This document shows, in pieces, positions 698 through 64,000 of a DNA stretch of 64,000 nt; positions within the stretch are counted from its first letter, which is position 1; each line of letters begins with the position of its first letter. The translations under genes and the position numbers were made by a program. The DNA comes from Hyalangium ruber. Its GTDB lineage: Bacteria; Myxococcota; Myxococcia; Myxococcales; Myxococcaceae. Under the pieces are notes generated by a model, which ran no database searches, was not told the origin of the DNA, and saw only the letters and a program-made list of their open reading frames with translations. The stretch lies in contig NZ_JAXIVS010000010.1 in NCBI RefSeq assembly GCF_034259325.1, forward strand, positions 248,001 to 312,000. The letters are read 5' to 3'.

Positions 698-3196
698 ATG
701 TCCTTACGCGCTTCTCTTCGTCACACGGCCCTGCTGGCCGTGGTCCTGTTGTGCCTGCCCGGCGCTGCCTGGGCGCAAGTAGCCCTGAGCGGCCAGGTCC
801 ACTTCGCCGACGGCAGCATCGCCGCGGGCGTCACGGTGTACGCCAAGGCCGGCAACATCACCCATCGAGCCACCACGGACGCGTCCGGCAACTACCTGCT
901 GCAGTTCGCCGCGGGCACCTACGACGTCGGTGTCTCCTTCAATTCCAATGGCTTCAGCGGCTCCCAGACGCTCTTCTCCGCTCAGCCTTTCAGCTCCAAC
1001 ACCACCCTCAACCTGATCACCTCCGACATCCTGCTCAATGGCCGCATCCTCAACAGCAGCGGCCAGCCCGTGCCCGACATCCGGATGACCGGCTACGTCT
1101 ACGGCGGCGACAGCTGGAATGATCTGTTCCCCGTCTCTGGCGCCGATGGTCGCTTCCAGGTCCGCATGCTGCCCGGCACCTACACCAACGTGCGGCTCCA
1201 GCCTCCCTCCGGCTCCTCCTACGTCCTCACCCCGCTGCCCAATCAGACCTTCACCGCCTCGCTCTCCAAGGACTTCACCTTGGCCAGCACCATCACTCTC
1301 AGCGGCCAGGTCCACTTCGCCGACGGCAGCATCGCCGTGGGCACCTCGGTGTACGCCGAGGCCGGCAACATCATCCACCGGGCCACCACGGACGCGTTCG
1401 GCAACTACATGCTGCAGCTGGCCGCGGGCACCTACGACGTCGGCGTCTCCTTCAACTCCAATGGCTTCAGCGGCTCCCAGACGCTCTTCTCGGCTCAGCC
1501 CCTCAGCTCCAACGCCATCCTCAACCTGACCACTTCCGACATCCTGCTCAACGGCCGCATCATCAACAGCAGCGGCCAGCCCGTTCCCGATGTCCGGATG
1601 ACCGGCTACGTCTACGGCGGCAACAGCTGGAATGATCTGTTCCCCGTTTCTGGCGCCGATGGTCGCTTCCAGGTCCGCATGCTGCCCGGCACCTACACCA
1701 ACGTGCGGCTCCAGCCTCCCTCCGGCTCCTCCTACGTCCTCACCCCGCTGCCCAATCAGACCTTCACCGCCTCGCTCTCCAAGGACTTCACCTTGGCCGG
1801 CACCATCACCCTGAGCGGCCAGGTCCACTTCGCTGACGGCAGCATCGCCGCGGGCACCTCGGTGTACGCCGAGGCCGGCAACATCATCCACCGGGCCACC
1901 ACGGACGCGTCCGGCAACTACCTGCTGCAGTTGGCCGCGGGCACCTACGACGTCGGTGTCTCCTTCAATTCCAATGGCTTCAGCGGCTCCCAGACGCTCT
2001 TCTCCGCTCAGCCCTTCAGCTCCAACACCACCCTCAACCTGACCACCTCCGACATCCTGCTCAACGGCCGCATCATCAACAGCAGCGGCCAGCCCGTGCC
2101 CGACGTCCGGATGACCGGCTACGTCTACGGCGGCAACAGCTGGAACGATCTGTACCCCGTCTCTGGCGCCGATGGCCGCTTCCAGATCCGCCTGCTGCCC
2201 GGCACCTACACCAACGTGCAGCTCCAGCCTCTCTCCGGCTCCAGCTATCTGCTGACGCCGCTGTCCAACCAGACGTTCTCCGCCTCGCTCAGCAAGGAGT
2301 TCCTCGTCGCCGACAGCAACGAGTGCGCGTTGAACAACGGCGGCTGCAGCGTGAACGCCACCTGCACCAACATCCCCGGCTCCTTCACGTGTACCTGCAA
2401 CCCCGGCTACACGGGGGATGGGTTCTCCTGCGTGGTCATCCCCGCGACGGTGACGCTCACCTCCCCCAATGGCGGCGAGCAGTGGGCGACGGACAGCGTG
2501 CAGAACATCACCTGGAGCGCCTCCGGCCTGAGCAACGTGGACCTCCACTACTCGCTCGACAACGGCGCCAGCTGGACGCTGATCGCCGCCAACGTGTCGG
2601 CCGCCTCGGGTGCGTATGCCTGGACCCTGCCGACCTCGACTTCCACGAGCGCCCGCGTGCGCGTCGCCAATGCCCTGGACGGCAACCCCTCGGACATCAG
2701 CAACGCCGCCTTCTCCCTCGTGGCTCCCGCGCGTCTCGTCCTCAATGAGATCCTCGCCAACGAGCCCGGCTCGGCCACCGCCGGCGAGTTCATCGAGGTG
2801 GTCAACGTGGGCGGCACCAGCCTGGACCTCAGCGGCTGGGCGCTCTGGGACGCCACCGCCGTGCGCCACACCTTCCCCTCCGGCACCGTGCTGCCCGCGG
2901 GCAAGGCGCTGGTGGTGTTCGGCGGGGCCTCCGGCATCCCTGCCGGCGTGCCCAATGCCGTGGCCGCCACCACCGGGGGCCTCAACCTGGGCAACAGCGG
3001 CGACACCGTCACGGTGAAGAACGCCGCCGGTGCCAGCATCGACAGCTACACCTATGGCAGCACGCTGGCCTCGGCCGATGGCGTGTCCATGAACCGGAGC
3101 CCGGATGCCACCGCGGGCGCGTCGTTCGTGCTGCACAACGCCCTGTCCACGCTGTCCGCCTCGGCCGGCAAGCGCGCCAACGGCAGCGCCTTCTAG
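698..3196 (+). CDS. Secreted triple-repeat, EGF-like, lamin-tail-domain protein
   Basis: An 832-residue exported protein with a signal peptide at 1-26 (cleavage after AWA). Residues 30-542 are three tandem copies of a 171-residue unit containing two carboxypeptidase-regulatory-like beta-sandwich motifs (LSGQVHFADGS..., ILLNGRI...SSGQPVPD). Residues 539-580 form a six-Cys calcium-binding EGF-like domain (DSNECALNNGGC...). An Ig-like segment beginning near 585 with SPNGGEQW follows, then a lamin-tail domain from about 680 (LVLNEILANEPGS). All these modules are extracellular adhesive folds, so a surface or matrix role is inferred; no catalytic residues are seen. ATG 698 is preferred over an in-frame GTG at 674 because it starts directly on the signal peptide. 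Confidence 0.85.
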   Translation: MSLRASLRHTALLAVVLLCLPGAAWAQVALSGQVHFADGSIAAGVTVYAKAGNITHRATTDASGNYLLQFAAGTYDVGVSFNSNGFSGSQTLFSAQPFSSNTTLNLITSDILLNGRILNSSGQPVPDIRMTGYVYGGDSWNDLFPVSGADGRFQVRMLPGTYTNVRLQPPSGSSYVLTPLPNQTFTASLSKDFTLASTITLSGQVHFADGSIAVGTSVYAEAGNIIHRATTDAFGNYMLQLAAGTYDVGVSFNSNGFSGSQTLFSAQPLSSNAILNLTTSDILLNGRIINSSGQPVPDVRMTGYVYGGNSWNDLFPVSGADGRFQVRMLPGTYTNVRLQPPSGSSYVLTPLPNQTFTASLSKDFTLAGTITLSGQVHFADGSIAAGTSVYAEAGNIIHRATTDASGNYLLQLAAGTYDVGVSFNSNGFSGSQTLFSAQPFSSNTTLNLTTSDILLNGRIINSSGQPVPDVRMTGYVYGGNSWNDLYPVSGADGRFQIRLLPGTYTNVQLQPLSGSSYLLTPLSNQTFSASLSKEFLVADSNECALNNGGCSVNATCTNIPGSFTCTCNPGYTGDGFSCVVIPATVTLTSPNGGEQWATDSVQNITWSASGLSNVDLHYSLDNGASWTLIAANVSAASGAYAWTLPTSTSTSARVRVANALDGNPSDISNAAFSLVAPARLVLNEILANEPGSATAGEFIEVVNVGGTSLDLSGWALWDATAVRHTFPSGTVLPAGKALVVFGGASGIPAGVPNAVAATTGGLNLGNSGDTVTVKNAAGASIDSYTYGSTLASADGVSMNRSPDATAGASFVLHNALSTLSASAGKRANGSAF
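785..2323 (+). repeat. Three tandem 513-bp coding repeats
   Basis: The units start at 785, 1298 and 1811, so the period is exactly 513 bp (171 codons) and the frame is kept. Copies 1 and 2 differ at roughly one residue in ten. The block at about 1123-1284 recurs at about 1636-1797 with only one base change noticed. This implies recent duplication or gene conversion. Confidence 0.9.
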
Positions 3197-3245
3197 GCAC
3201 CTCCGCCCTGAAGTGCCCCCTCCTGTCCACCCCGAAGTGGACAGC

Positions 3246-3273
3246 GCCCTCTCCCTCGGTCCTGGGAGAGGGC
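3246..3273 (+). terminator. GC-rich hairpin after the repeat protein
   Basis: A perfect 10-bp stem, GCCCTCTCCC / GGGAGAGGGC, with an 8-base loop, 49 bases after the stop codon. There is no T-run, so it could be a Rho-assisted terminator or a dispersed intergenic hairpin. It resembles the one at 17243-17279 in sequence. Confidence 0.4.
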
Positions 3274-3395
3274 GGGGAGGGACATGCAGGCAAGCAGCGA
3301 AGCCCGCCCCGCCGCTCGCTGGGTTGAGTCCTCTGGCTCCGGACGCACATTTACCTCATGCGCTCGCCGCGACCTGCGAGCAGCAGGGGGTTGTG

Positions 3396-6300
3396 ATGCA
3401 AGAGGACCATGGCCCCACCGACGGGCCGCCTCAGTCCGAGCTGTCCCCAGGCGAGGAGGACCTCGACTTCGGCGATTCCCTGCTGCACGAGGTGGCCAGG
3501 GGGCCCCTGCCGCTCCGCTTGCCCGTGCGCGGAGAACGCCTGGGCGGCAAGGACGGCCAGCGCTTCGAGATTCTCGCGGAGCTGGGCGGCGGGGCCATGG
3601 GTCGGGTATTCCGCGCGTGGGATGAGAAGCTCCAGCGCGTCGTGGCGCTCAAGTTCCTCCAGCCCCACGAGGCGCTCGGCGAGGAGCCCCTGCGCGCGCT
3701 GCTGCGCGAGGCGCGTGCCATCGCCCAGCTCGACCACGAGAACATCGTCCGCGTCTTCGACGTGTCCGAGTGGAGCGCCGCGAGCTGGGAGCCGCGCATC
3801 CCATTCCTGATCATGGAGTGCCTGCGGGGCGAGTCGCTCGCCGTGCGCATGCGGCGAGAGCGGCTCTCGCCGGGGCGCGCCCTGGACATCATGCTCGGCA
3901 TCGCCGAGGGGCTGGCGCACGCCCACGAGCACCACATCGTCCACCGGGACCTCAAGCCCACCAACGTCTTCCTCACCCCGCAGGGCACGCCGAAGCTGCT
4001 CGACTTCGGCCTGGCCCACCTCATGTCCTCGGGTGCCTCATCGGAGCCCCACCTGCCCTCGGCCGGCACTCCGGCCTACATGGCCCCGGAGCAGTGGCGG
4101 AGCCTGCCGCAGGACGAGCGCACCGACATCTGGGCCGCGGGCGCCCTCCTCTACGAGATGCTCACGGGGGAGCCGCCCTATCCGCACAGCGCCTCTCCGG
4201 ACGCGCTGCGCGAGCAGGTGACGTCCCCCGAGCCGGTGCCGCCCGTGCGCGGCCGGAGCCCTGGGCTGCCGCGCGAAGTGGAGCAGCTGCTGTCCACGGC
4301 GCTGGCCAAGGAGCCCGAGCGGCGCTTCCCCACGGCGCGGGAGTTCGCCGAGGAGCTGCGCGAGCTGGCGGAGCGCTTCGGCCAGCGGCGGGAGGCTTCC
4401 CGAGGCAAGGCCCCCGAGCGGCGCCAGGTGACGCTCGTCTCCTGCGCGCTGGCGGGGCTCGCGGAGGTCGCCCAGGGGCTGGACAGCGATGACCTGGGAG
4501 AGCTGCAAGAGGCCTTCCTCCAGTGCTGCGAGGAGCTGCTCCAGCGCTACGGCGGCACCATCGCCGTGTACCTGGGAGACGAGGTGCAGGCGTGCTTCGG
4601 CTGCCCGGTGGCGCACGAGGAGGACACGGAGCGCGCGGTCCGCGCGGGGCTGCACCTGATCCGTGAAATCCCCTCCACCCTCCAGCGCAAGCTGCCCGGG
4701 CTTCCCCTGCGCACGCTGCAGGTCCGGGTGGGCGTGCATACGGACGAGGTGGCGCTGAGAGCCCTCTCGCGGCAGCCGCAGGGCTCGCCGCTCTTCATTC
4801 ACAACGAGGCCCCGAAGCTCACCACGTGGATCACGGGACACGCCGCCCCGGGCATGCTCCTCGCCAGTCAGAGTACCTGGGCGCTGGTGCGGGGAACCTT
4901 CGAGGCGGAGCCCGCCGGCTCCCGCGCCTTCACGGGCCTGGCCGGGACGCGGAGCCTGGAGTTCTACCGCGTGCTCCGGGAGCGCCCCGCGAAGTTCCGT
5001 TTCGATCGGGTGCGCGCCGCCGGGAGCCTCACGCCGCTGGTGGGCCGCGAGCTCGAGCTGCGCCGGCTGCTGGAGCGCTGGCAGCAGGCCCGCCGTGGAC
5101 ATGGTTCGCTCGTGCTCGTCAGTGGGGATGCGGGCATCGGCAAGTCGCGCCTCCTCCAGGAGCTGCGAGCGCGGGTTCCTCGGGAGGACTGCATCCACTT
5201 CCAGTGTCAGTGCTGGCCCCAGTTCAGCGCCACCGCCTTCCACCCCTTCATCGAGCTGCTGCGCCACATGCGGCGGGAGCTTCCCCCCGCCCCTGCCTCC
5301 GAGCCGGGGCAGCCGGAGCGCTCCCTGGGCCTGAGCTCGGAGCAGGAATACCTGCTGTCCGCCTTGCTGGCCGTGCCGGGCGCCGAAGCGGCGCGCCCCG
5401 CATCCCTCTCTCCGGAGCGCTGGAAGGAAGGCACGCTCAAGGGGCTCCTGACGCTGCTGCTGCGCGCCACGCACCAGCGGCCGGTGCTCGCCTTCGTCGA
5501 GGACGTACACTGGGCAGACCCCTCCTCCCTGGAGCTGATCAGCCTCGTGATGGAGCACGTGGGGCGAGAACGCCTGCTCGTCGTCCTCACCGCCCGCCCG
5601 GACTTCCACCCCACCTGGCCCCCTGCGGCTTCGATGCACCGGCTCGAATTGGAGCGCCTCCCCGCGGAGCGCACCGCGGAGCTGGTGCGCGCGGTCGCGC
5701 ACGGCCGGAAGCTGTCCGACGACACCCTGAACCAGCTCGTGGCCAGAACGGATGGCATCCCCCTCTTCGTCGAAGAGCTGACGCACATGATGCTGGACCA
5801 GCCCTCCGCCTTGGAGGCGAAGGCCCCGAGGCACGTGCCCGCCATCCCGGCCAGCCTGCACGAGCTGCTGTTGGCGCGGCTGGACCTGTTGCCCTCGCGA
5901 CAGCGAATCCTGGCGCAGGTGTGCGCGGTGCTGGGGCGCGGCTTTCCGCTCTCGGTGCTCGCCCACGTCCTCCAGCGGGACGAGGCCGGCGTACGCCGCG
6001 ACCTGGAGGCGCTGGTGGCGGAGGGGCTGCTCGAATCCCCACAACAAGGCACGGACGCCGGCTATCCGTTCCGCCACGCGCTCCTGCAGGACGCGGCCTT
6101 CCAGTCCCTGCATCGCGGCACCCGCCGGGGCTATCACCAGCGCATCGCCCAGGCGCTGATGGAGCGCTTCCCGGAGACGGTGGAGTTCCAGCCCGAGCTC
6201 CTGGCCCACCACCTCACCGAGGCCGGAGAGTCCGAGCGAGCCATCGACGCCTGGACCCAGGCGGGGCTGCGCGCCAACCTGCGCTCGGCCAACGCGGAGG

Positions 6301-53782: not shown

Positions 53783-54396
53783 GCAGCGGGGAGTTCGAGT
53801 TCTGGTTCGAGTTCGCGAGCACCTACTCCTACGTGGCGGCGATGCGCATCGAGGCCGCCGCGGCCCAGGCAGGCGCCCGCATCCTCTGGCGCCCCTTCCT
53901 GCTCGGGCCCCTCTTCACCGAACAGCAGGGCATCAAGGACTCTCCCTTCAACGTCCACCCGGTGCGCGGGCGCTACATGTGGCGGGACCTCGAGCGGCTG
54001 TGCGCCAAGTACGCGCTGCCCTGGCGCAAGCCCTCGGTGTTCCCGCGCAACAGCATCCTCCCGTCGCGCGTGGCCCTCCTCGGCGCCGAGCAGCCCTGGG
54101 GCCCGGACTTCGTGCGCGCCGTCTACCGCGCCAACTTCGCCGAGGACCGGGACATCTCCTCTCCGCCGCTCATCGAGGAGCTCCTCACGAAGGCCGGCGC
54201 CGACGCCCGCGCCGTGCTCGCCCAGGCCGAGTCACCCGACACCAAGCTGCGCCTGCGTGAGCAGACCGCGCTCGCCGGAAAGCTCGGCATCTTCGGCGCT
54301 CCCAACTTCCTGGTACGCGGCGAGCTGTTCTTCGGGCAGGACCGGATGGACGACGCCCTGGCACACCTGGGCGCCTCCGCCGCTACGGGGCGCTAG
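53779..54396 (+). CDS. 2-hydroxychromene-2-carboxylate isomerase-like DsbA-fold protein
   Basis: A 205-residue cytoplasmic protein of the DsbA-like HCCA isomerase/GST-kappa family. It has the N-terminal FWFEFASTYSYVAAMRIE, LLGPLFTEQ, the helical insert and C-terminal GIFGAPNFLVRGELFFGQDRM. Enzymes of this family use glutathione and a Ser in place of CxxC (here Ser15 or Tyr in STYSY) to isomerise aromatic-degradation intermediates; a naphthalene-type pathway is not visible here, so the true substrate is unknown. It is ATGA-coupled to the membrane protein upstream. Its end overlaps the convergent response regulator gene by 14 bases (54383-54396). Confidence 0.88.
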   Translation: MSSGEFEFWFEFASTYSYVAAMRIEAAAAQAGARILWRPFLLGPLFTEQQGIKDSPFNVHPVRGRYMWRDLERLCAKYALPWRKPSVFPRNSILPSRVALLGAEQPWGPDFVRAVYRANFAEDRDISSPPLIEELLTKAGADARAVLAQAESPDTKLRLREQTALAGKLGIFGAPNFLVRGELFFGQDRMDDALAHLGASAATGR

Positions 54397-54883
54397 CGGC
54401 GCTCACCCCGGTGAGCTCCGCCGCCATCTCCCGCAGCTTCTGGCTGCTGAAGGGCTTGCGCATCTCCTGCAGCCGCCGCGCCTCTCCGAACTCACGCAGG
54501 ATTTCCTCCCAGGAGTAGTCGGAGTAGGCCGAGCACAGCACCACCTGCAGCCCGGGCGCCACCTGCCGCAGGTGCCGCAGCGTCTCGACACCGTTCCAGC
54601 CCGGCGGCATGCGGTAGTCCAGGAAGACCAGCGCGTAGGGCTGGCCCGAGTCCTCCGCCTGCCGCACCTTGTCGAGGCCCTCCTCGCCCTGGAAGGCCGA
54701 CTCCACCTCGAAGGCCTCCTCCTTCCCCCCCGCACTGCTCGCGGGCGCCGAGCCGAAGAGCGCCCCCTCCAGCTGGTCCAGCAGGTGGGTGTTCGCCTTC
54801 GGCTCCGGACAGAGGACCCGCCGGAAGTCGCGGTGGATCGCCTCGGAGTCGTCGATGATCAGGATCCGCTTGGTGCGCCTCAT
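54383..54883 (-). CDS. Stand-alone response regulator receiver protein
   Basis: A 166-residue single-domain receiver. Acidic pair Asp11-Asp12 (ILIIDDSEAIH), phosphoacceptor Asp89 (VFLDYRMPPGWNG), Ser/Thr switch (VVLCSAYSDYSW) and conserved Lys (MRKPFSSQKL) are seen. An insert of about 30 residues (25-55) between the first helix and second strand makes it longer than a standard 120-residue REC. No output domain. Its ATG overlaps the stop of the upstream hybrid kinase (ATGA, 54880-54883), so it is the probable final acceptor of that kinase's phosphate. Confidence 0.92.
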   Translation of the reverse strand: MRRTKRILIIDDSEAIHRDFRRVLCPEPKANTHLLDQLEGALFGSAPASSAGGKEEAFEVESAFQGEEGLDKVRQAEDSGQPYALVFLDYRMPPGWNGVETLRHLRQVAPGLQVVLCSAYSDYSWEEILREFGEARRLQEMRKPFSSQKLREMAAELTGVSAASAP

Positions 54884-57800
54884 GCCGGCGAGCCTTCGGC
54901 CGCCGCGCGAACCCGAGCCACCCACTCGCGGACCCGCTCGCGCAGCTTCTCCGGCTCGAAGGGCTTGTCCAGCCGGGGGTTGGACACCTGCTCCAGGAAC
55001 TCCTGGGCCGCTGGCGTGTAGGCCCCACCGGTGACGAACACCATGCGCTGGGCCCGCTCGGGCTCGGCCGCCTTGAGCTGGGCGTACAGCTCCATGCCCG
55101 TCATCTCCGGCATCATCAAGTCGCAGAGGATGACGTCATAGGTGCCCTGCGGCGAGCGCAACATCTCCAGCGCCTGCCGCGAGCTGACCACCACCTCCAC
55201 CTCATGTTCGCGCGCCAGCGTCCGCCGCAGCGCGGAACTCACCAATGGATCATCATCCACCACCAGCACCCGACCTCGCATCGACACTCCCTCCTTGGAT
55301 TCGACCTCACGCAGCGCGCGTACCGCCTCGCCCCGCGCCACTGGCAACGTCACCCGGAACACCGTCCCCCGCCCCACCTGACTCTCGACTTCTATGCGCC
55401 CGCCCATCGCCGTGATGAACGCATGACATAGTGCCAGCCCCAGGCCCGTGCCGACACCTACCGGTTTCGTGGTGAAGAAAGGATCGAAGATCCTCGCCAT
55501 CACGTCCGGGGCGATGCCACTGCCCGTATCATGCACCTCGGCCACGACTTGTTCGTCCCCCAGCCGACGAGTCACCAGGCGCACCTCGTTCTGCTCGGGC
55601 TTTCCCTCGGGCAGCGCCTGGGCGGCGTTGATGATGAGGTTGAGGAACACCTGGGCCAGCCGGGGCTCGTTGCCCTCCACCCGGGGCACCTCGGAGAAGT
55701 TTCGCACCAGCTGGGCCCGGGGGCGAAGCTCCCCGGTGGCCAGCTTCGCCGCCGCGTCCATCACCGCCCGGAGGTCCACCGGCCCCGTCGAGTCCTCGTC
55801 CTGGCGGGAGAACGTCTTCAAGTCCTTGACGATACGACGCACCCGGTCAGCCCCCATGAGGGCCTCGCGCAGCACCTGCTCCATCTCCCGCAGCCGCTCG
55901 CGCACGTCCTCCGGCCCGCCCTCCAACCGCTGCATCAGCGTGCCTGCCTCTTCGCTGGCATGCTGCAGGTTGGAGACGATGTAGGACAGGGGGTTGTTGA
56001 TTTCGTGGCCCACGCCGGCGGCCAGGGTGCCCACCGCCGCCATCTTCCCCGCCTGGACGAGCTGGGCCTGGGTGGCGCGCAGGGTGCGCAGGTGGGCGTC
56101 CAGCTCGTGGTTGGCGCGGGCCAGCTCCTTGGTGCGCTCCTCCACCCGGGCCTGGAGCCAGCGCTCGCGCGCCTTCAGCCGACCCACCCGCCAGCCGTAG
56201 CCTCCGGCCGCCACGCCGCCCACCCCCACCACGCACAGCAGGTAGAACCACACCGTCTGGTGGAACCACGGCCGCAGCGTCAGCTCCAACACCACCCCGG
56301 GCTCGCGCCACACGCCCTCCCGGTCCGCCACCATGACCCGGAAGCGGTAGGTGCCCGGCGGCAGGCGCGAGTACGTCGCCCAGCGCCGGCTCTCGGCGTC
56401 CACCCAGTCCCCGTCGTAGTTCTCCAGCCGGTAGCGGAAGGGCACCCGCACGGGGCCCTCGGGGGCGAAGGCGGTGAAGCGCACCTCCAGGTCATTGCGG
56501 CCTGGCTCCAGCTCCAGCTTCGGGCCCAGCGGCATCGGCTGGCCCTGCACCCGCACCTCCTGGATGTGGACCTCGGGCGGGCGTCGGTCCAGGTGCGGGT
56601 CCCTGCCGTCCACCGCCACCACGCCGCGCAGGGTGGCGATCCACACGCGCCCGTCCCGCGAGCGCCACGCGGAGGGCTGGGAGCTGCCGTTGGTCTCCGC
56701 GGCGCGCAGCCCGTCGCGCTCGTCATAGAGGTAGGCGCGCACCCGCTCGCGTCGGCCGTCGGCCACCTCCTCCAGCTCGCGCTGGCTCACCCGGGAGATG
56801 CCCTTGTTGCTGCCCATCCACACGTAGCCGTTGAGGTCGGGCACCACATTATAGACGGTGTCGTCGGCCAGCCCCTGCGCCACGCTCACGCGCGAGAGGA
56901 GCTCGCCCTTCAGGCGCAGCACGCCGGTATAGGTGCCCATCCACAGCGCGCCCTGCGGGTCGGCGTACAGCGAGAGGATGGTCTCGTTGGCCAGCCCCTC
57001 CACCGCCACGCGGCTGAAGGCCCCGTGGGCGTAGCGCACCAGGCCCCCGTGCGTGCCGAACCAGAGCGTGCCGGCGCCATCCTCCACGATGGAGATGACG
57101 GCCTCGGGAACCGGGCCCTGCTCGGGCGTATATAAGGTGAAGCGCCCCGCGTGCAGGCGCGCCAGCCCCGAGGAGGTGCCGAACCACACGTCCCCGTGCG
57201 AGTCCGGGAGGATGGCCCACACCACGTCATGCGGCAGCCCGTCCTCGCGCTGCACCTGGCTGAAGCGCTGCCCGTCGTAGCGGAAGGCGCCGTGGTGCGT
57301 GCCCACCCAGAGCGTGCCGTCAGGCCCCTCGGCCAGGGAGCGGATGTTGTCGTCGGTGAGCCCCTCCGCCGCGCTCATGCGGTGGATGTGCCCATCCTTC
57401 ATCCGGTTGAGCCCGCCTCCCAGTGTGCCCACCCAGAGCGCCCCGTCCTTCGTCTCCATCACCACGCGGACGAAGTCATGGCTCAGGCCCTCCGGCACGC
57501 CGAAGGTGCGAAAAGGGCCCGCGCGCAGGCGGTTGAGGCCCCCGTCCGCCGTGCCCACCCAGAGGTTGCCGTCCCGGTCCTCGAAGAGCGAGTACACGCG
57601 GCTGCCGGACAGCCCCTCCCTGGGGCCGAAGTGGACGAAGCCCCCGTCCGTGCGCCGCGCCAGGCCCGTCTCATGGCCCACCCACAGCGTGCCGTCCCGG
57701 GCCTCGAGCAGCACGGCCACCTCGTGGTGCGGCAACCCCTGCTCCGGGCCATGAAAGGTGAAGCGCCCCTCGCTCAGGGACAGCAGCCCGCCATACGTGC

Positions 57801-58512
57801 CCACCCACAGCGTGCCGTTGCGGCCCACCCGCAGCGAGCGCACCCGCGCGTCCGCGCCCTCCGGCAGCGGCACCCGCTCCACCTTGCCGTCCCACAGCCG
57901 CGCCAGCCCCTCGCGCGTGCCCACCCACACCCCGCCGTGCTGGTCCACCGCGAGCGCCTCGATGCCGGTGCTCGGCAGCCCCTCCTTGGCCGTGTAGCGG
58001 CGCCGCGTGCCTCCCGGAGAGAGGGACACCTGCTCCAGCCCCAGCGAGGAGCCCACCCACAGCGTGGTGCCCTCCAGCGCGAGCGCCGGCACGTTCACCT
58101 GCCGCAGGTCTCCCTCGTCCCGCAGGCGTTGGAAGCGGCCGCCCTCGTAGTGGAGCACGCCCTTCTTCGTCCCCACCCACAGCCCGCCGGCGCCATCCTC
58201 CACGAGCGAGCGGATGCCGTGCTCGCTCAGCTCCGGCGTGTTGTGCCGGTTGTACACGGTGAACTGGGCGCCATCGAAGCGGGCCAGGCCCTCCCAGGTG
58301 GCCAGCCAGAGGTAGCCCTCTTCCGTCTGCTGAATGGCGAAGACGGTGTTCTGCGGCAGCCCGTCCTCATTGCGCCAGGCCTGGTGGTTGTACTGGGACA
58401 GGAGCCGGGGCGTGTCCAGGGCATGGCTCCGCGTGCTCGCGCCCAGGAAGGCGACGAACCACAGGCCGAGGAGGGCATGTCCCCCTGAACCGCGCTTGCC
58501 CCGTTTCAACAT
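54880..58512 (-). CDS. Hybrid histidine kinase with extracytoplasmic two-component-regulator propeller
   Basis: A 1210-residue sensor. A signal peptide or anchor (1-30) is followed by about 14 propeller repeats of the LWVGTxxGLxRxxDG type (roughly 45-640), a Y_Y_Y domain (about 660-735, FTAFAPEGPVRVPFRYRLENYDGDW), TM (WFYLLCVVGVGGVAAGGYGW), and a coiled coil. The HisKA domain carries GVGHEINNPLSYI and the HATPase has the G1/G2 boxes (DTGSGIAPDV, GTGLGLAL). A C-terminal receiver ends it (VLVVDDDPLVSS, phospho-Asp in LCDLMMPEMTG). This architecture resembles Bacteroides polysaccharide-sensing hybrids, but no susC/D or CAZyme genes are adjacent. Start ATG 58512 is chosen for the signal peptide; the upstream in-frame region is low complexity. 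Confidence 0.92.
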   Translation of the reverse strand: MLKRGKRGSGGHALLGLWFVAFLGASTRSHALDTPRLLSQYNHQAWRNEDGLPQNTVFAIQQTEEGYLWLATWEGLARFDGAQFTVYNRHNTPELSEHGIRSLVEDGAGGLWVGTKKGVLHYEGGRFQRLRDEGDLRQVNVPALALEGTTLWVGSSLGLEQVSLSPGGTRRRYTAKEGLPSTGIEALAVDQHGGVWVGTREGLARLWDGKVERVPLPEGADARVRSLRVGRNGTLWVGTYGGLLSLSEGRFTFHGPEQGLPHHEVAVLLEARDGTLWVGHETGLARRTDGGFVHFGPREGLSGSRVYSLFEDRDGNLWVGTADGGLNRLRAGPFRTFGVPEGLSHDFVRVVMETKDGALWVGTLGGGLNRMKDGHIHRMSAAEGLTDDNIRSLAEGPDGTLWVGTHHGAFRYDGQRFSQVQREDGLPHDVVWAILPDSHGDVWFGTSSGLARLHAGRFTLYTPEQGPVPEAVISIVEDGAGTLWFGTHGGLVRYAHGAFSRVAVEGLANETILSLYADPQGALWMGTYTGVLRLKGELLSRVSVAQGLADDTVYNVVPDLNGYVWMGSNKGISRVSQRELEEVADGRRERVRAYLYDERDGLRAAETNGSSQPSAWRSRDGRVWIATLRGVVAVDGRDPHLDRRPPEVHIQEVRVQGQPMPLGPKLELEPGRNDLEVRFTAFAPEGPVRVPFRYRLENYDGDWVDAESRRWATYSRLPPGTYRFRVMVADREGVWREPGVVLELTLRPWFHQTVWFYLLCVVGVGGVAAGGYGWRVGRLKARERWLQARVEERTKELARANHELDAHLRTLRATQAQLVQAGKMAAVGTLAAGVGHEINNPLSYIVSNLQHASEEAGTLMQRLEGGPEDVRERLREMEQVLREALMGADRVRRIVKDLKTFSRQDEDSTGPVDLRAVMDAAAKLATGELRPRAQLVRNFSEVPRVEGNEPRLAQVFLNLIINAAQALPEGKPEQNEVRLVTRRLGDEQVVAEVHDTGSGIAPDVMARIFDPFFTTKPVGVGTGLGLALCHAFITAMGGRIEVESQVGRGTVFRVTLPVARGEAVRALREVESKEGVSMRGRVLVVDDDPLVSSALRRTLAREHEVEVVVSSRQALEMLRSPQGTYDVILCDLMMPEMTGMELYAQLKAAEPERAQRMVFVTGGAYTPAAQEFLEQVSNPRLDKPFEPEKLRERVREWVARVRAAAEGSPA

Positions 58513-58919: not shown

Positions 58920-60485
58920 CTAGCGCTCGGCCTCCCAGGGAGGTGTCCTCGGGGACAGGAGCACGTGGAAGCCCTTGGCCCGGGCCTTTCGCACCACGTG
59001 GGCCACGTCCTCCAGCGAGGCCTCCTCCTTCACGGTGAGGTAGAGCAGGGCGTTGTCCACGGAGTCGCCGGCGAGCGGGCCTGGGTCCTTCAGGTCCAGC
59101 ACCCGGGGCTCCCCGGCCTCGCCGCTCGCTTCCACGAGGCGTACCTGACGCTCGGCGCCCAGCTCCGCCTGCCAGGGCTTGAAGGAGGAGAAGATGTCTG
59201 CCGCTTCCTGGGAGGGAAGGAAGACGTCGGCGACCCCGGGCCCGGAGCTCTCGGAGACGGCGAAGCGCACGAGGAGGGGATGGCCTCCCGACGCGGAGAG
59301 CTGACGCTCCACGGAGTCCTCGGAGGAGGCGCCCCGCAAGCCGATGAGGTAGAGCTTGCTCAGGCCCGCATGGCTGCTCGCCACGAGCAACCGGCGGAAC
59401 TCGGCAACTGGCACCCGGGCATCCACGGCGAGGTGCAGGCCCTCGTCGAGCCGCCGCTCGTCGTTCTCCAGCACCTCCTCCCGGAGGAACCGAACGAGCT
59501 CCTCGTCTCCGGTGTTCCACGAGGCCGAGTAGCTGCCTGGCATGACCACGCCCCGCATGTTGGCGATGGCCTCCACCCGCTCGAAGCCCTGGTCCCGGCC
59601 GAAGGGGAGCAACTGCAGCTCCGCCAGCTCGGAGGGAGACGCGCGAGTGCGCTCCACCGCCTGGGACATGAGCGTGGGGAGCCGCCCATCGGCCCAGAGC
59701 ACACCGGCGCCGAGGAGGACGAGCAGCGCCAGCAGCGCGAGCGCGGCGGGGCTCCTGGGCTGCTGGACGCCGCGCCATGCCATGAGCAGGACCGTGACGA
59801 GGACGAGCGCCCCCAGGGCTCCGGCGCGCAGCAGGAGGGTGCCTCGCAGCTCCTCGGCGCCAGTCATGAGGATGATCGCCCGGTCGGCCGGGTTGACGCC
59901 GCCGACGGCGATCAGGACTTCGGAGAGGGACGAGGCCTCGGTGGCGGACAGGATGCTCACCACCATCAACAGCAGCGCCGCGCCGGCCTCGAGGAGCCGG
60001 TAACGGGCCTTGGATTGGACAAGCCCGGCGATGAGGAGCCCGCCCGCGGCGGCCAGCAGCAACCCGGCGCTGGCCCACGCTCCGAACATCCGGGAGTAGA
60101 GGGCCTCTCCCGTGCCCACGGCGAGGATGGTGAGCTGGTCGTACGGGTTGACGAGCGCGATGGCCTCGAGCACCTGACGCCCGCCCGTCACGGCGCCAGC
60201 ACTGCCCACGACCCAGGGCAGCAGCGCGATGCCGAGTGGCACGAGCGGAGGGATGTTTCTGCCCGAGGCCAGGAAGTAGAGCGCCGCGCAGAGGCCCAAG
60301 GTGCCCAGCATCGCGCACAGGAGGATGGCGTAGAAGGACCACCCCACCATCGTCACGGCCTGGGCGAGTTCGTCGAGACCTCCCAACAGGAGCAAGAGAA
60401 GCACGGCCAGGGTGGGCTGGATCACCAGCGGCAGCAGCGAGGCGATCAGCCCGGGGAGGAAGGACGGCTTCTGGGGCTCGGACAT
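58920..60485 (-). CDS. Membrane protein with duplicated TM unit and duplicated ExbD-like periplasmic domain
   Basis: A 521-residue protein, not a recognised family. The N-terminal 290 residues hold about eight helices. Two stretches match each other, ALVNPYDQLTILAVGTGEALYSR and GGVNPADRAIILMTGAEELRGT, each followed by a long hydrophobic helix, so the membrane part contains an internal duplication. After the last helix, two segments of the soluble half look ExbD/TolR-like: GLHLAVDARVPVAEFRRLL...SKLYLIGL and NALLYLTVKEEASLEDVAHVV...FHVLLSP. A proton-channel-type energy coupler is therefore possible but unproven. Start ATG 60485; the neighbouring kinase gene is divergent. Confidence 0.7.
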   Translation of the reverse strand: MSEPQKPSFLPGLIASLLPLVIQPTLAVLLLLLLGGLDELAQAVTMVGWSFYAILLCAMLGTLGLCAALYFLASGRNIPPLVPLGIALLPWVVGSAGAVTGGRQVLEAIALVNPYDQLTILAVGTGEALYSRMFGAWASAGLLLAAAGGLLIAGLVQSKARYRLLEAGAALLLMVVSILSATEASSLSEVLIAVGGVNPADRAIILMTGAEELRGTLLLRAGALGALVLVTVLLMAWRGVQQPRSPAALALLALLVLLGAGVLWADGRLPTLMSQAVERTRASPSELAELQLLPFGRDQGFERVEAIANMRGVVMPGSYSASWNTGDEELVRFLREEVLENDERRLDEGLHLAVDARVPVAEFRRLLVASSHAGLSKLYLIGLRGASSEDSVERQLSASGGHPLLVRFAVSESSGPGVADVFLPSQEAADIFSSFKPWQAELGAERQVRLVEASGEAGEPRVLDLKDPGPLAGDSVDNALLYLTVKEEASLEDVAHVVRKARAKGFHVLLSPRTPPWEAER

Positions 60486-60675: not shown

Positions 60676-63600
60676 ATGGAGCGTGTAGGAACTCTCATTG
60701 GCCCGTATCGGCTGCGGCATCGAGTGGGCAGTGGCGGCATGGGTGAAGTCTTCGCCGCCTTCCACGAGCGCATGGAACAGGAAGTAGCGCTCAAGCTGCT
60801 GTCGCCCGATGCAGCCAGGGATCAGCAGCTCGTCGCACGCTTCCTACAAGAGGGGCGCGCCCTGGCACGACTCCAGCACCCGGGAGTCGTCCAGGTCTTG
60901 AACTGCGATCAACTCGACGATGGAACGGTCTTCCTCGCGATGGAGTTGCTCCAGGGACTCTCCCTGCGAGAGTGGATGCGTCGCCAGCCTGGGCCTGTAC
61001 CGCGTGAGGTGGCGCTGGCCCTAGGGAAACAAGTCGCTGAGGTGATGGCGGACATACACGCGAAGGAGGTCGTCCATCGAGATCTGAAGCCCGAGAACGT
61101 GTTCCTGTGCCCCAGTCCGAGTGTTGAGCCAGGCTATCGGATCAAGCTTCTGGACTTCGGCATCGCCAAGGTCCCGCCCGCCCTGAGTGGCAGCAATGTC
61201 GACACCCAGGTCCAGACCCAGGCACCGACTTTCTTGGGCACCGCGACATACATGGCCCCCGAACAGTTCCGGAACGCAGCCACGGTGGATGGGCGCGCGG
61301 ACGTCTATTCGCTGGGGGTGATGCTCTTCGAGCTGCTGACGGGCAGGCCGCCCTTCGATTCGAGCGAGCAAGTCGAGGTGATCTCGATGCACATCCGGGC
61401 AGAGCCTCCGAGCCTGCAGGAAGCCCTGCCTGCCACGCCAGGAGTGTTCTCCGCCTTCGTTTCCTCCATGCTCTCCAAGAATCCGCAGGAGCGGCCCGGT
61501 ATGCTCCGGTGCCTGGAGGTATTCAGCGGCCGCTGGGACGACCGTCAAGATGAGTGTCCCATCCCCGGGCTTTTGGCCTTCACGGAGAGCCAAGCCGAAC
61601 TCTTCTTCGGTCGACAGACGGAGATCGGTGAGTTGCTGACCCTCCTCGAAGCGTCGCATGAGGGCCTCCATCGGTGGGTGCAACTCGAAGGCCCTAGCGG
61701 CGTCGGTAAGTCCTCGCTGGTCCAAGCCGGACTGCTTCCACGGTTGAAACAGGCACTGCCTCAGCAATCGCCGCGCTGGCGGATTGCCAGCCTACGCCCT
61801 TCGCATTCTCCGCTGCGAAGCTTGGCGGTGGCGCTTCTCGCCGCGTACAAGGACACGGGCCTCGACCGCTCGCCAGAGCAACTCGAGGAGGCTTTGCACG
61901 CGGGCCCAGATGCACTCCAGCGCTTGGTAAAAGCCTACACGCCTCCAGGCTCTTGCCTCCTTCTGGTCATCGAGCAAATGGAGGAACTGCTCACGCTAGG
62001 CGAGGCAGACAGGCTGCGCATGGAAGAGCTAGTGGCCTCCGCGCTCTCTGCCCCAGACAGTTCTCTGCGGCTGCTCACGACCCTGCGAAGTGACTTCATC
62101 TATCGTTTGGAGCAACTGCCACGCCTCTCACGGCAGCTCAACGAAGCCGTACGGTACTACCTGCGTCCCATGGAGGACGAGGCGCTGACCCAAGCCATTC
62201 ACGGGATGGCCCAGCGCGCGGGGCTACGGCTCTCCGAGGGACTCCCGGAGCGCATGGTGCGCGATACGACGAGCGAAAGCAGTCGGCTTCCGCTGCTGAG
62301 CCATACACTCCGTGGGCTCTGGGCATTGCGCCACGGCACGTCCCTGACCCATGAGCGATATGAGCAACTGGGAGGCGTGGGAGGAGCGTTGGCGCGGCAG
62401 GCCGAAGAACTCCTCGACAGCCTAGGAGCCGAGGGCCGCGAGCGCGCAAAATGGCTCCTGCTCGACCTTGTGCATGTCAGCCACGGCGTCCACGGGGCCC
62501 CCGCCATCCGACGCTCACGCTTACGGCAGGAGGTACTTGCATCGGCGGGAGGCGATGCGCTGGCAGAGGAGGTGCTGCTGCGACTGTCCGGGATGCGCTC
62601 CGAGACCGCCGGCAAGGCGGAGCAGACCCTGCGACTCATCGACGTCTCGGGAGAGCCGGAGCCTACCCAGCAACGTGTCGATTTGATTCATGAGACGCTG
62701 CTTCAAAAGGTGCCATCCTTCGTGGGATGGCTCGAACATGAGCGCACGCTGCTCGAACGCAACATGGAACTGGAAGTCGCCGCGCATGCGTGGGAGCAGG
62801 CTGGCTGTCCGAGGGGTGACCTGCCCACGGGAACGCTCCTCCAGCACTACCGAGAGTCCGCTGGCGCTCGAACTGCCCAGGGCCATCAGGCGCGCAGGGC
62901 CAGTGAGCGGGCAACGCGATTCCTCGAATCGGCAATGCGATTTGACCTGCTGCGGGCGCGGGTCAAGCGAGCCCTGATCGTCGCTTGTCTCGCAGCTACT
63001 GTGGCCAGCATGGCCACGGCTATCCAAGCCTCAAGCGAGAGGCAGCGCGCCGAGACCACCCTCCAGCAAGCCATCGGCCTGACAAACGATTTCGTCTCCG
63101 ATGTGGACTGGGTACTCGGGAGACGCGCTCACACCCTGGAGGCGCGCGATCAACTTCTTAAGCGCTTCGGAGAGCTCCTCGCCAAGCTCCCAGAGCAGGA
63201 CCGCAAGAACCTCAAGGTGCTTCTGGTCAGCATCAAGACCTGGCAGCGCCACGGCGACCTTTTCTTCCACGATGGGACACTCTCCCAAGCTGATCACATC
63301 TTTGACTCCGCGAGACATGCGCTCCAGCAAGGCCTGATGAGCCATCCAGGGAACCCCGATTTGATGTTTCGGCTTGGGCTGGACGCATCCAAGCGAGGCA
63401 AGATCGCCCGGGCGCGTGAACACTGGGAGCAAGCGCGCGTTTACTTCCTCGAGGCAAACAGCCTCTTCGCACGCCCTCACCCAACACACAGACCCGAAGA
63501 TCACCGTCGGACACAAGCGACGAGCTACTCTGAACTGGCCGATCTGGACCTTGCTTCCGGCCAGACCGCTGCCGCCAGAGCGCTGTATGACCGCGCCATC

Positions 63601-64000
63601 GCGCTCTTGGAGCAAAACTCGAGTTCTTACGATCAGTCACTCTTGGCCGAGACACTCGGGGCTCGTGCGAAGGCCGCCTGGGCCGCCAGAGACGCGAAGG
63701 CCGCCGAGCACGGCTTTACTGCAGCCCTGACCCTGGGGCGTGCCCTCAGCCAGTCCGACCCAGGAGATACGTACTATCGCTGGGTGCTGACCCAGATCTT
63801 GGTGGAGTTCGCACGATTCCGTTTCGACAGCAGAGCCTTCTCCGAAGCGGCCAGCCTCTATAAGGAGGCGCAAGACCACGGGCGTGTCCTCCACGAGGGA
63901 GAAAAGCCCAACAAGCGCTATGCGCTGGTCCTAGCCGAGAGCCTGCTCGGAGGCGAGCAGTTGGCGGAGTCTCTGGCAGACGCTGCCCGTACCGCTCAGC
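60676..64000 (+). CDS. Ser/Thr kinase fused to nSTAND-type NTPase and TPRs (runs off window)
   Basis: Open from ATG 60676 to the window edge (1108 codons seen, no stop). The kinase domain (about 12-275) has VGSGGMGEVF, VALKLL, VHRDLKPENVF, LDFGIAK and GTATYMAPEQ, all intact. A STAND-like NTPase follows at about 305-600 (FFGRQTEIGELL, then P-loop EGPSGVGKSSLVQAGLLPRL; LLLVIEQMEELL as Walker B), typical of nSTAND1. One TM helix lies near 766-785 (ALIVACLAATVASMATA), followed by TPR-like helices (ARALYDRAIALLEQ, AAEHGFTAALTLGRALSQ). It may be a STAND-type signalling sensor with the TPRs beyond the membrane. Divergent from the gene at 58920-60485. Confidence 0.9.
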   Translation, partial: MERVGTLIGPYRLRHRVGSGGMGEVFAAFHERMEQEVALKLLSPDAARDQQLVARFLQEGRALARLQHPGVVQVLNCDQLDDGTVFLAMELLQGLSLREWMRRQPGPVPREVALALGKQVAEVMADIHAKEVVHRDLKPENVFLCPSPSVEPGYRIKLLDFGIAKVPPALSGSNVDTQVQTQAPTFLGTATYMAPEQFRNAATVDGRADVYSLGVMLFELLTGRPPFDSSEQVEVISMHIRAEPPSLQEALPATPGVFSAFVSSMLSKNPQERPGMLRCLEVFSGRWDDRQDECPIPGLLAFTESQAELFFGRQTEIGELLTLLEASHEGLHRWVQLEGPSGVGKSSLVQAGLLPRLKQALPQQSPRWRIASLRPSHSPLRSLAVALLAAYKDTGLDRSPEQLEEALHAGPDALQRLVKAYTPPGSCLLLVIEQMEELLTLGEADRLRMEELVASALSAPDSSLRLLTTLRSDFIYRLEQLPRLSRQLNEAVRYYLRPMEDEALTQAIHGMAQRAGLRLSEGLPERMVRDTTSESSRLPLLSHTLRGLWALRHGTSLTHERYEQLGGVGGALARQAEELLDSLGAEGRERAKWLLLDLVHVSHGVHGAPAIRRSRLRQEVLASAGGDALAEEVLLRLSGMRSETAGKAEQTLRLIDVSGEPEPTQQRVDLIHETLLQKVPSFVGWLEHERTLLERNMELEVAAHAWEQAGCPRGDLPTGTLLQHYRESAGARTAQGHQARRASERATRFLESAMRFDLLRARVKRALIVACLAATVASMATAIQASSERQRAETTLQQAIGLTNDFVSDVDWVLGRRAHTLEARDQLLKRFGELLAKLPEQDRKNLKVLLVSIKTWQRHGDLFFHDGTLSQADHIFDSARHALQQGLMSHPGNPDLMFRLGLDASKRGKIARAREHWEQARVYFLEANSLFARPHPTHRPEDHRRTQATSYSELADLDLASGQTAAARALYDRAIALLEQNSSSYDQSLLAETLGARAKAAWAARDAKAAEHGFTAALTLGRALSQSDPGDTYYRWVLTQILVEFARFRFDSRAFSEAASLYKEAQDHGRVLHEGEKPNKRYALVLAESLLGGEQLAESLADAARTAQ

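Follow-up and report, generated by a model that had tools for sequence, protein, structure and literature searches.

A fused ExbB/ExbD-like membrane protein with a duplicated channel hairpin in Hyalangium ruber and its relatives in Myxococcota

The window analysed here, a stretch of 64,000 nucleotides from the genome of Hyalangium ruber, carries on its minus strand a gene (58920-60485, stop included; a codon-based pick from the open reading frames and their translations) for a protein of 521 aa counted from its ATG. We consider it rather probable that this protein is a single-chain derivative of an energiser of the AglR/ExbD(/GltG) type, in which canonical proton-driven rotation has probably been lost and for which a structural, force-transmitting or regulatory role is favoured. 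Such a protein would have originated from an ExbB channel of the AglR/TolQ type and from an ExbD subunit, by fusion and duplication of their parts. The resulting inner-membrane protein would comprise an extra helix, a helix like TM1 of ExbB, two TM2-TM3 hairpins, a helix in the place of the ExbD transmembrane helix, and either one or two periplasmic domains like that of ExbD. We infer its topology by analogy with ExbB: the N-terminus would lie inside, and the hairpin loops, together with the ExbD-like C-terminal part, would be periplasmic.

Seven transmembrane helices are seen in the window protein by hydropathy (the coordinates of all its features refer to the minus strand). TM1 (aa 10-34, 60384-60458), which appears as a helix with a pLDDT of ~71-81 in the AlphaFold model, is an extra N-terminal helix with no ExbB counterpart assigned. 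It is followed by a helix region (aa 37-73, 60267-60377) that corresponds to TM1 of ExbB/AglR in an hhalign comparison with an AglR-only profile. Next come membrane copy 1 (aa 81-157, 60015-60245; helices 81-111 and 114-157), matched by hhalign to the TM2-loop-TM3 hairpin of ExbB, and membrane copy 2 (aa 160-241, 59763-60008), a second ExbB hairpin according to its hhalign alignment with copy 1 and to HMM matches with AglR-type ExbB. TM7 (aa 247-265, 59691-59747; hydropathy and alignment) occupies the position of the ExbD transmembrane helix and has D266 at its outer end. Within the periplasmic part, segment 1 (aa 318-395, 59301-59534) is like the periplasmic domain of ExbD, as judged from hhalign and from profile matches to PDB sequences, while segment 2 (aa 400-521, 58923-59288) is probably a second ExbD-like copy, the hhalign evidence being suggestive only.

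In the AlphaFold model, the membrane part consists of the helix pairs 81-111/114-157 and 160-195/199-241, with breaks at both NP motifs. The full-length model was built from an input of three sequences, two of them without the periplasmic part; its mean pLDDT is 56.6, most of the periplasmic part falls below 50, and its outline is usable for the membrane helices only. Modelled alone, the periplasmic part reached a pLDDT of 38.7. When the weak model was searched against the PDB with Foldseek, all 652 matches were weak and none reached E≤0.001; the query TM-scores of the 50 matches listed range from 0.10 to 0.22.

A reading made earlier from the sequence alone had pointed to an NPxDxxxIL..G..E pattern occurring twice in the membrane part, and this is borne out. 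The motif NP.D...IL..G..E has exactly two occurrences in the window protein, NPYDQLTILAVGTGE in copy 1 (aa 113-127, 60105-60149; pattern match and residue conservation) and NPADRAIILMTGAEE in copy 2 (aa 198-212, 59850-59894; pattern match), and none of 100,000 shuffled versions of the protein contained even one match. In the nearest relative, L068, which is 42% identical to the window protein, the motif is recognisable in copy 2 only, copy 1 being without NP.D; therefore, the exact spelling is not conserved. Single residues are better kept: in the 21-row family alignment, D116 is present in 20 rows and E127 in 19, and in copy 2 the counts are 16 for P199, 16 for D201, 17 for R202, and 12 for E212.

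The kinship of the membrane copies with ExbB is revealed by family profiles. The Pfam model PF01618 (MotA_ExbB) has no match in the window protein at E≤10, and a search of the host genome with this model gave nine places, seven of them above the cut-off and none at the window locus. NCBIfam likewise yielded no usable assignment for the window protein. For comparisons by hhalign, in which secondary structure was not used, family segments were taken from alignment A5, a set of 21 hand-chosen, diverse and mostly full-length rows (in L070, a contig edge cuts off the N-terminus). Copy 1 matches a set of 54 ExbB sequences with E 1.2e-7, and copies 1 and 2 match each other with E 4.1e-10, whereas copy 2 matches the broad ExbB profile weakly (E 0.019); in each of the three comparisons, none of 200 column shuffles scored as high. 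The TM1 region gave no significant match to the broad ExbB set (4 of 200 shuffles as high). Against a profile made of AglR alone (seven rows with little diversity), the E-values are 7.7e-6 for the TM1 region, 2.3e-13 for copy 1, and 6.1e-6 for copy 2, with reversed-profile controls at 0.15-0.56 (0.34 for the TM1 region). Moreover, among 5,858 distinct open reading frames, the copy-1 HMM found 65 family frames and 8 ExbB, and the copy-2 HMM found 59 family frames and 8 ExbB (best E 1.2e-8), with no others in either case; the reversed HMMs of copies 1 and 2 gave one unrelated weak match and none, respectively. The ExbB proteins matched in this way are canonical and of the AglR type. Since copy 2 is linked to ExbB weakly on the broad profile, its assignment depends on copy 1 and the profiles of AglR type. 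Taken at the level of sequence profiles, these comparisons show both membrane copies to be homologous to the TM2-TM3 hairpin of ExbB.

Among the ExbB proteins of the host genome, both copies rank the same gene (C19) first, with 53.6 and 33.0 bits for copies 1 and 2, followed by the C1 gene with 25.3 and 15.5 bits; the other five score at most 7.7 bits for copy 1. The C19 operon encodes ExbB, ExbD and ExbD of 246, 162 and 195 aa. According to the available part of PMC3169522, AglR, AglQ and AglS (MXAN_6862, 6861 and 6860) have 245, 162 and 194 aa, and by size and order the C19 operon appears to be the AglRQS operon, for which NCBIfam gave no AglR row.

The soluble part was compared with ExbD in the same manner. 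The Pfam model ExbD (PF02472) matches aa 330-380 with E 0.24 and 11.9 bits, below its cut-off of 25.4, and the ExbD-like stretches lie at about aa 350-383 and 479-510. A first set of ExbD sequences was picked by an Asp-motif pattern and is therefore biased; a second set of 75 rows was picked without it. Against these 75 ExbD rows, segment 1 gave E 1.2e-5, none of 200 shuffles scored as high, and the reversed control gave 0.48. Its HMM, run over the 5,858 open reading frames, matched 30 frames of the family and 18 ExbD; the two remaining matches, L081 and L082, had previously been assigned to the family by the A1 profile described below. When the A5 profile was compared with PDB sequences, the first ten matches were all ExbD/TolR, each of them weak (E 0.015-0.68). 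Segment 1 is thus shown, by profile similarity, to be homologous to the periplasmic domain of ExbD. Segment 2 matches ExbD with E 0.013 and segment 1 with E 6.3e-4 (none of 200 shuffles as high in either comparison), but its HMM found no ExbD match among the 5,858 frames; the hhalign values suggest that it is probably a second ExbD copy. Of the two ExbD-like soluble segments proposed by the sequence-only reading, the first is supported and the second is suggestive only. The broader proposal of a fused, two-copy relative of ExbB and ExbD holds, with both copies matching AglR-type ExbB independently and segment 1 matching ExbD against reversed and shuffled controls; the family search that it had called for supplied the link where the Pfam models fall below their cut-offs.

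Relatives of the window protein were found by protein search in 23 of 60 related genomes at E≤0.001, some of the rows being true ExbB/TolQ genes matched over aa 91-145 with ~40% identity. The A1 profile, made of seven members and applied to 147 genomes of the class, recovered full-length relatives in several genera as well as membrane-only relatives, and it also matched canonical ExbB genes over positions 83-149. With the A5 profile, matches at E≤1e-12 were obtained in 98 of the 195 genomes of the phylum, canonical ExbB matches counted in; the search for the fused family was confined to this one phylum. Retaining open-frame matches of at least 60 bits and removing identical or contained sequences left 52 family rows. 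Besides the window gene, the host assembly (10.77 Mb, 43 contigs) holds one other family gene, at the conserved locus (C2, 27% identical).

Three architectures can be distinguished. Full-length members have both the membrane and the periplasmic part, membrane-only members (304-364 aa) are found at a single conserved locus beside an ABC exporter gene, and in split pairs (L072, L073 and L201) two small genes carry one hairpin each. The split pairs lie at L072:4319-5079 (G013; 131 and 122 aa), L073:997-1742 (G002) and L201 ~4992-5935 (G017). Each of their genes encodes a single ExbB-like hairpin without a large cytoplasmic domain, and no ExbD gene is apparent beside the pairs of L072 and L073. 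Two divergent family members stand in tandem in G025 (L061:1091-2506 and 2622-3926). Distant members of 508-548 aa (L081:7678-9204, L082:7115-8761 (G027), L083:6684-8318 (G007)) were detected mainly via copy 2 and the ExbD-like part.

A tree of 65 hairpins places all 21 second copies on one side of a branch with support 99/86. The first copies group with three split genes, in each split pair the second gene clusters with copy 1 of the fused proteins, and the two copies of the window protein are not paired together. This placement of the second copies shows the duplication to be old and common to the family, with the caution that the alignment has 64 columns only, that the tree is rooted at its midpoint, and that several branches of copy 2 are long.

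Some relatives carry an additional C-terminal tail. NF033768 (AgmX/PglI C-terminal domain; cut-off 40 bits) was found in 6 of the 19 family proteins scanned, L039, L067, L070, L040, L197 and L199, with 86-105 bits and E from 1.5e-30 to 1.3e-24; the 19 include the window protein and two split genes, in all of which the NCBIfam scan found no such tail. In all six tailed relatives, GltG (NF033760) outscores GltJ. L197 (G185 f25) and L199 (G182 f24) come from outside Myxococcaceae, from other families of the phylum, and in L039, L067, L070 and L040 the alignments show that the ExbD-like part is present as well. By their domain matches, the tailed relatives are proteins with ExbB-, ExbD- and TonB-like parts in a single chain, and the tail fusion therefore unites parts previously thought to cooperate. 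The GltG/TonB-type domain could let such a chain reach outer-membrane partners. In L099 and L078, the C-terminal 90 aa resemble a diverged TonB-like tail, without a match in NCBIfam.

The family lacks two features of the known motors. In the transmembrane helix of ExbD, an Asp is strictly conserved, as stated in the available part of PMC9008036, whereas the core of TM7, at the position of this helix, has neither Asp nor Glu in any of the 21 rows. At the outer end of TM7 (D266), an Asp is present in 5 of the 21 rows and in 34 of the 52 rows of the larger set. Members with VPLLG at the start of TM7 recall the P-L-V-D of ExbD with the Asp replaced, a likeness too short for testing. Moreover, the stretch between the TM1-like helix and hairpin 1 is only ~8 residues long (aa 73-81), compared with the ~80 residues of the cytoplasmic domain in AglR-type ExbB; the ExbB cytoplasmic domain between TM1 and TM2 is absent in the family. 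From the lack of the ExbD-type Asp and of the cytoplasmic domain of ExbB, we infer a probable loss of motor function, an argument from one absent residue and one absent domain. As the axle domain is joined to the pore subunit and the Asp is gone, a separate dimeric axle rotating in a pentamer is unlikely. Thus, proton-driven motor function is not supported. The protein, in which rotation on proton flow would most likely be lost, might serve as a self-contained passive or regulatory element that binds peptidoglycan or the periplasmic partners of ExbD/GltG-type domains, and it could possibly dock on genuine AglR/ExbB rings.

It is unlikely that the protein is instead a working single-chain proton-driven energiser, in which at least two chains would form a small ring and D116, E127 and their copy-2 equivalents would replace the Asp of ExbD. 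The near-invariance of D116 and E127 speaks for it, as does the alignment of E127 with the Glu of the G-I-S-E-A motif of AglR/ExbB, and the TonB-like tails would provide an output; with both acids kept, an alternative proton path may exist. The acid-free core of TM7 and the short connection between the TM1-like helix and hairpin 1 stand against it, and the many membrane-only relatives would be odd for a motor, being axle-less. The boldest form of the idea, a single-polypeptide envelope energiser that combines a pore like that of ExbB with a paired axle like that of ExbD, plus a TonB-like arm in the tailed relatives, and that uses the proton motive force via hairpin acids replacing the ExbD Asp, is decidedly improbable.

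The surroundings of the gene suggest another possibility, namely that the protein is a partner or regulator of adjacent kinases, with its ExbB/ExbD-like body serving as a periplasmic sensor; this is quite unlikely. The window gene sits between a divergent Ser/Thr protein kinase with an nSTAND1 NTPase domain (60676-64000, plus strand, continuing beyond the window; Pfam) and a Reg_prop/Y_Y_Y hybrid histidine kinase (54880-58512, minus strand; Pfam), a neighbour outside the fused protein. L068 is adjoined by a counterpart of the hybrid kinase, 77% identical to that of the window, and has a Ser/Thr kinase two genes away, and the L060 gene and the L072 split pair come directly after Ser/Thr kinases. 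On the other side, ~400 bp lie between the window gene and the start of the hybrid kinase, Ser/Thr kinases are abundant in myxobacteria, and most other loci have no such kinase among the surrounding genes listed. Among the loci examined, only G112 (L068) pairs a close relative of the window gene with the hybrid kinase, and the neighbourhoods compared showed no partner gene common to full-length members. The hybrid kinase ends in a C-terminal receiver, and a separate receiver protein follows at 54383-54883.

In Myxococcaceae, a conserved locus (L084:8089-9645; syntenic in L086-L094) contains an ABC exporter, often a gene for a 126-aa membrane protein, and a family gene, in which the periplasmic part is kept in some genera and the membrane part alone in others, an apparent case of reductive evolution. 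A family in general decay, which would have lost the TonB tail, then the periplasmic part, then its function, and would have no defined role, is very unlikely. The retention of the membrane part alone at the conserved locus in many Myxococcaceae agrees with decay, as does the divergence of the window gene, which is much faster than that of the neighbouring kinase (42% versus 77% identity to the counterparts at L068). However, open frames are retained in dozens of species, and dN/dS (Nei-Gojobori) in five pairs of close relatives is 0.62, 0.42, 0.30, 0.33 and 0.38, the last two pairs being membrane-only. For the window gene and L068, dN/dS is 1.04, a value that is distrusted, as saturation and GC bias of the synonymous sites are probable, and which does not show constraint. 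Finally, a chance resemblance, in which the composition of some unrelated protein with several helices would imitate ExbB/ExbD, as the missing Pfam MotA_ExbB match and a best Pfam match to UPF0060 (E 0.0012, below cut-off) might suggest, can practically be dismissed, since the real profiles succeed where reversed and shuffled controls fail, and UPF0060, matched by none of ten relatives at E≤1, was rejected as a composition effect.

The favoured reading, a single-chain energiser derivative, can be set beside several known systems. The closest is the TolQR-like gliding motor AglR/AglQ/AglS of Myxococcus, as both membrane copies are nearest to the AglR-type ExbB of the host; unlike it, the fused protein is one chain and not three, has its hairpin duplicated, and is without the AglR cytoplasmic domain and without an Asp in the helix at the ExbD position. 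With ExbB-ExbD-TonB and TolQ-TolR-TolA, the family shares the ExbB hairpin and the ExbD-like domain, and six relatives also have the TonB-like domain at their C-terminus; however, the family is fused and duplicated, has no separate partner genes, and lacks the transmembrane Asp described in the available part of PMC9008036. The NF033768 tail of the six relatives is common to GltG (PglI) and GltJ (AgmX) and is nearer to that of GltG; it is carried on an ExbB/ExbD-like body and not on that of GltG itself, which has an FHA domain (PMC3169522, available part), and the window protein has no such tail. According to the literature, the MotA_ExbB hairpin places MotA-MotB stators in the same superfamily; Pfam named no MotB-like peptidoglycan-binding domain in the window protein.

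Descriptions of the 5:2 motors (MotAB, ExbBD, TolQR and AglRQS) present them as built from separate subunits. No description of an ExbB-ExbD or ExbB-ExbD-TonB fusion was found in the literature searched, subscription papers and preprints being outside its scope; such a fusion is not described in the available parts of PMC12204202, PMC9389320, PMC12505986, PMC5903867, PMC9008036, PMC3169522 and PMC6434023. With its duplicated channel hairpin fused to an axle domain, and with a TonB-type arm added in part of its members, the family represents a natural experiment on which parts of an energiser are necessary. If active, the family would demonstrate proton coupling without the Asp of ExbD; if inactive, it would offer an energiser that occurs naturally in a non-motor form, useful for telling scaffolding and partner binding apart from force generation.
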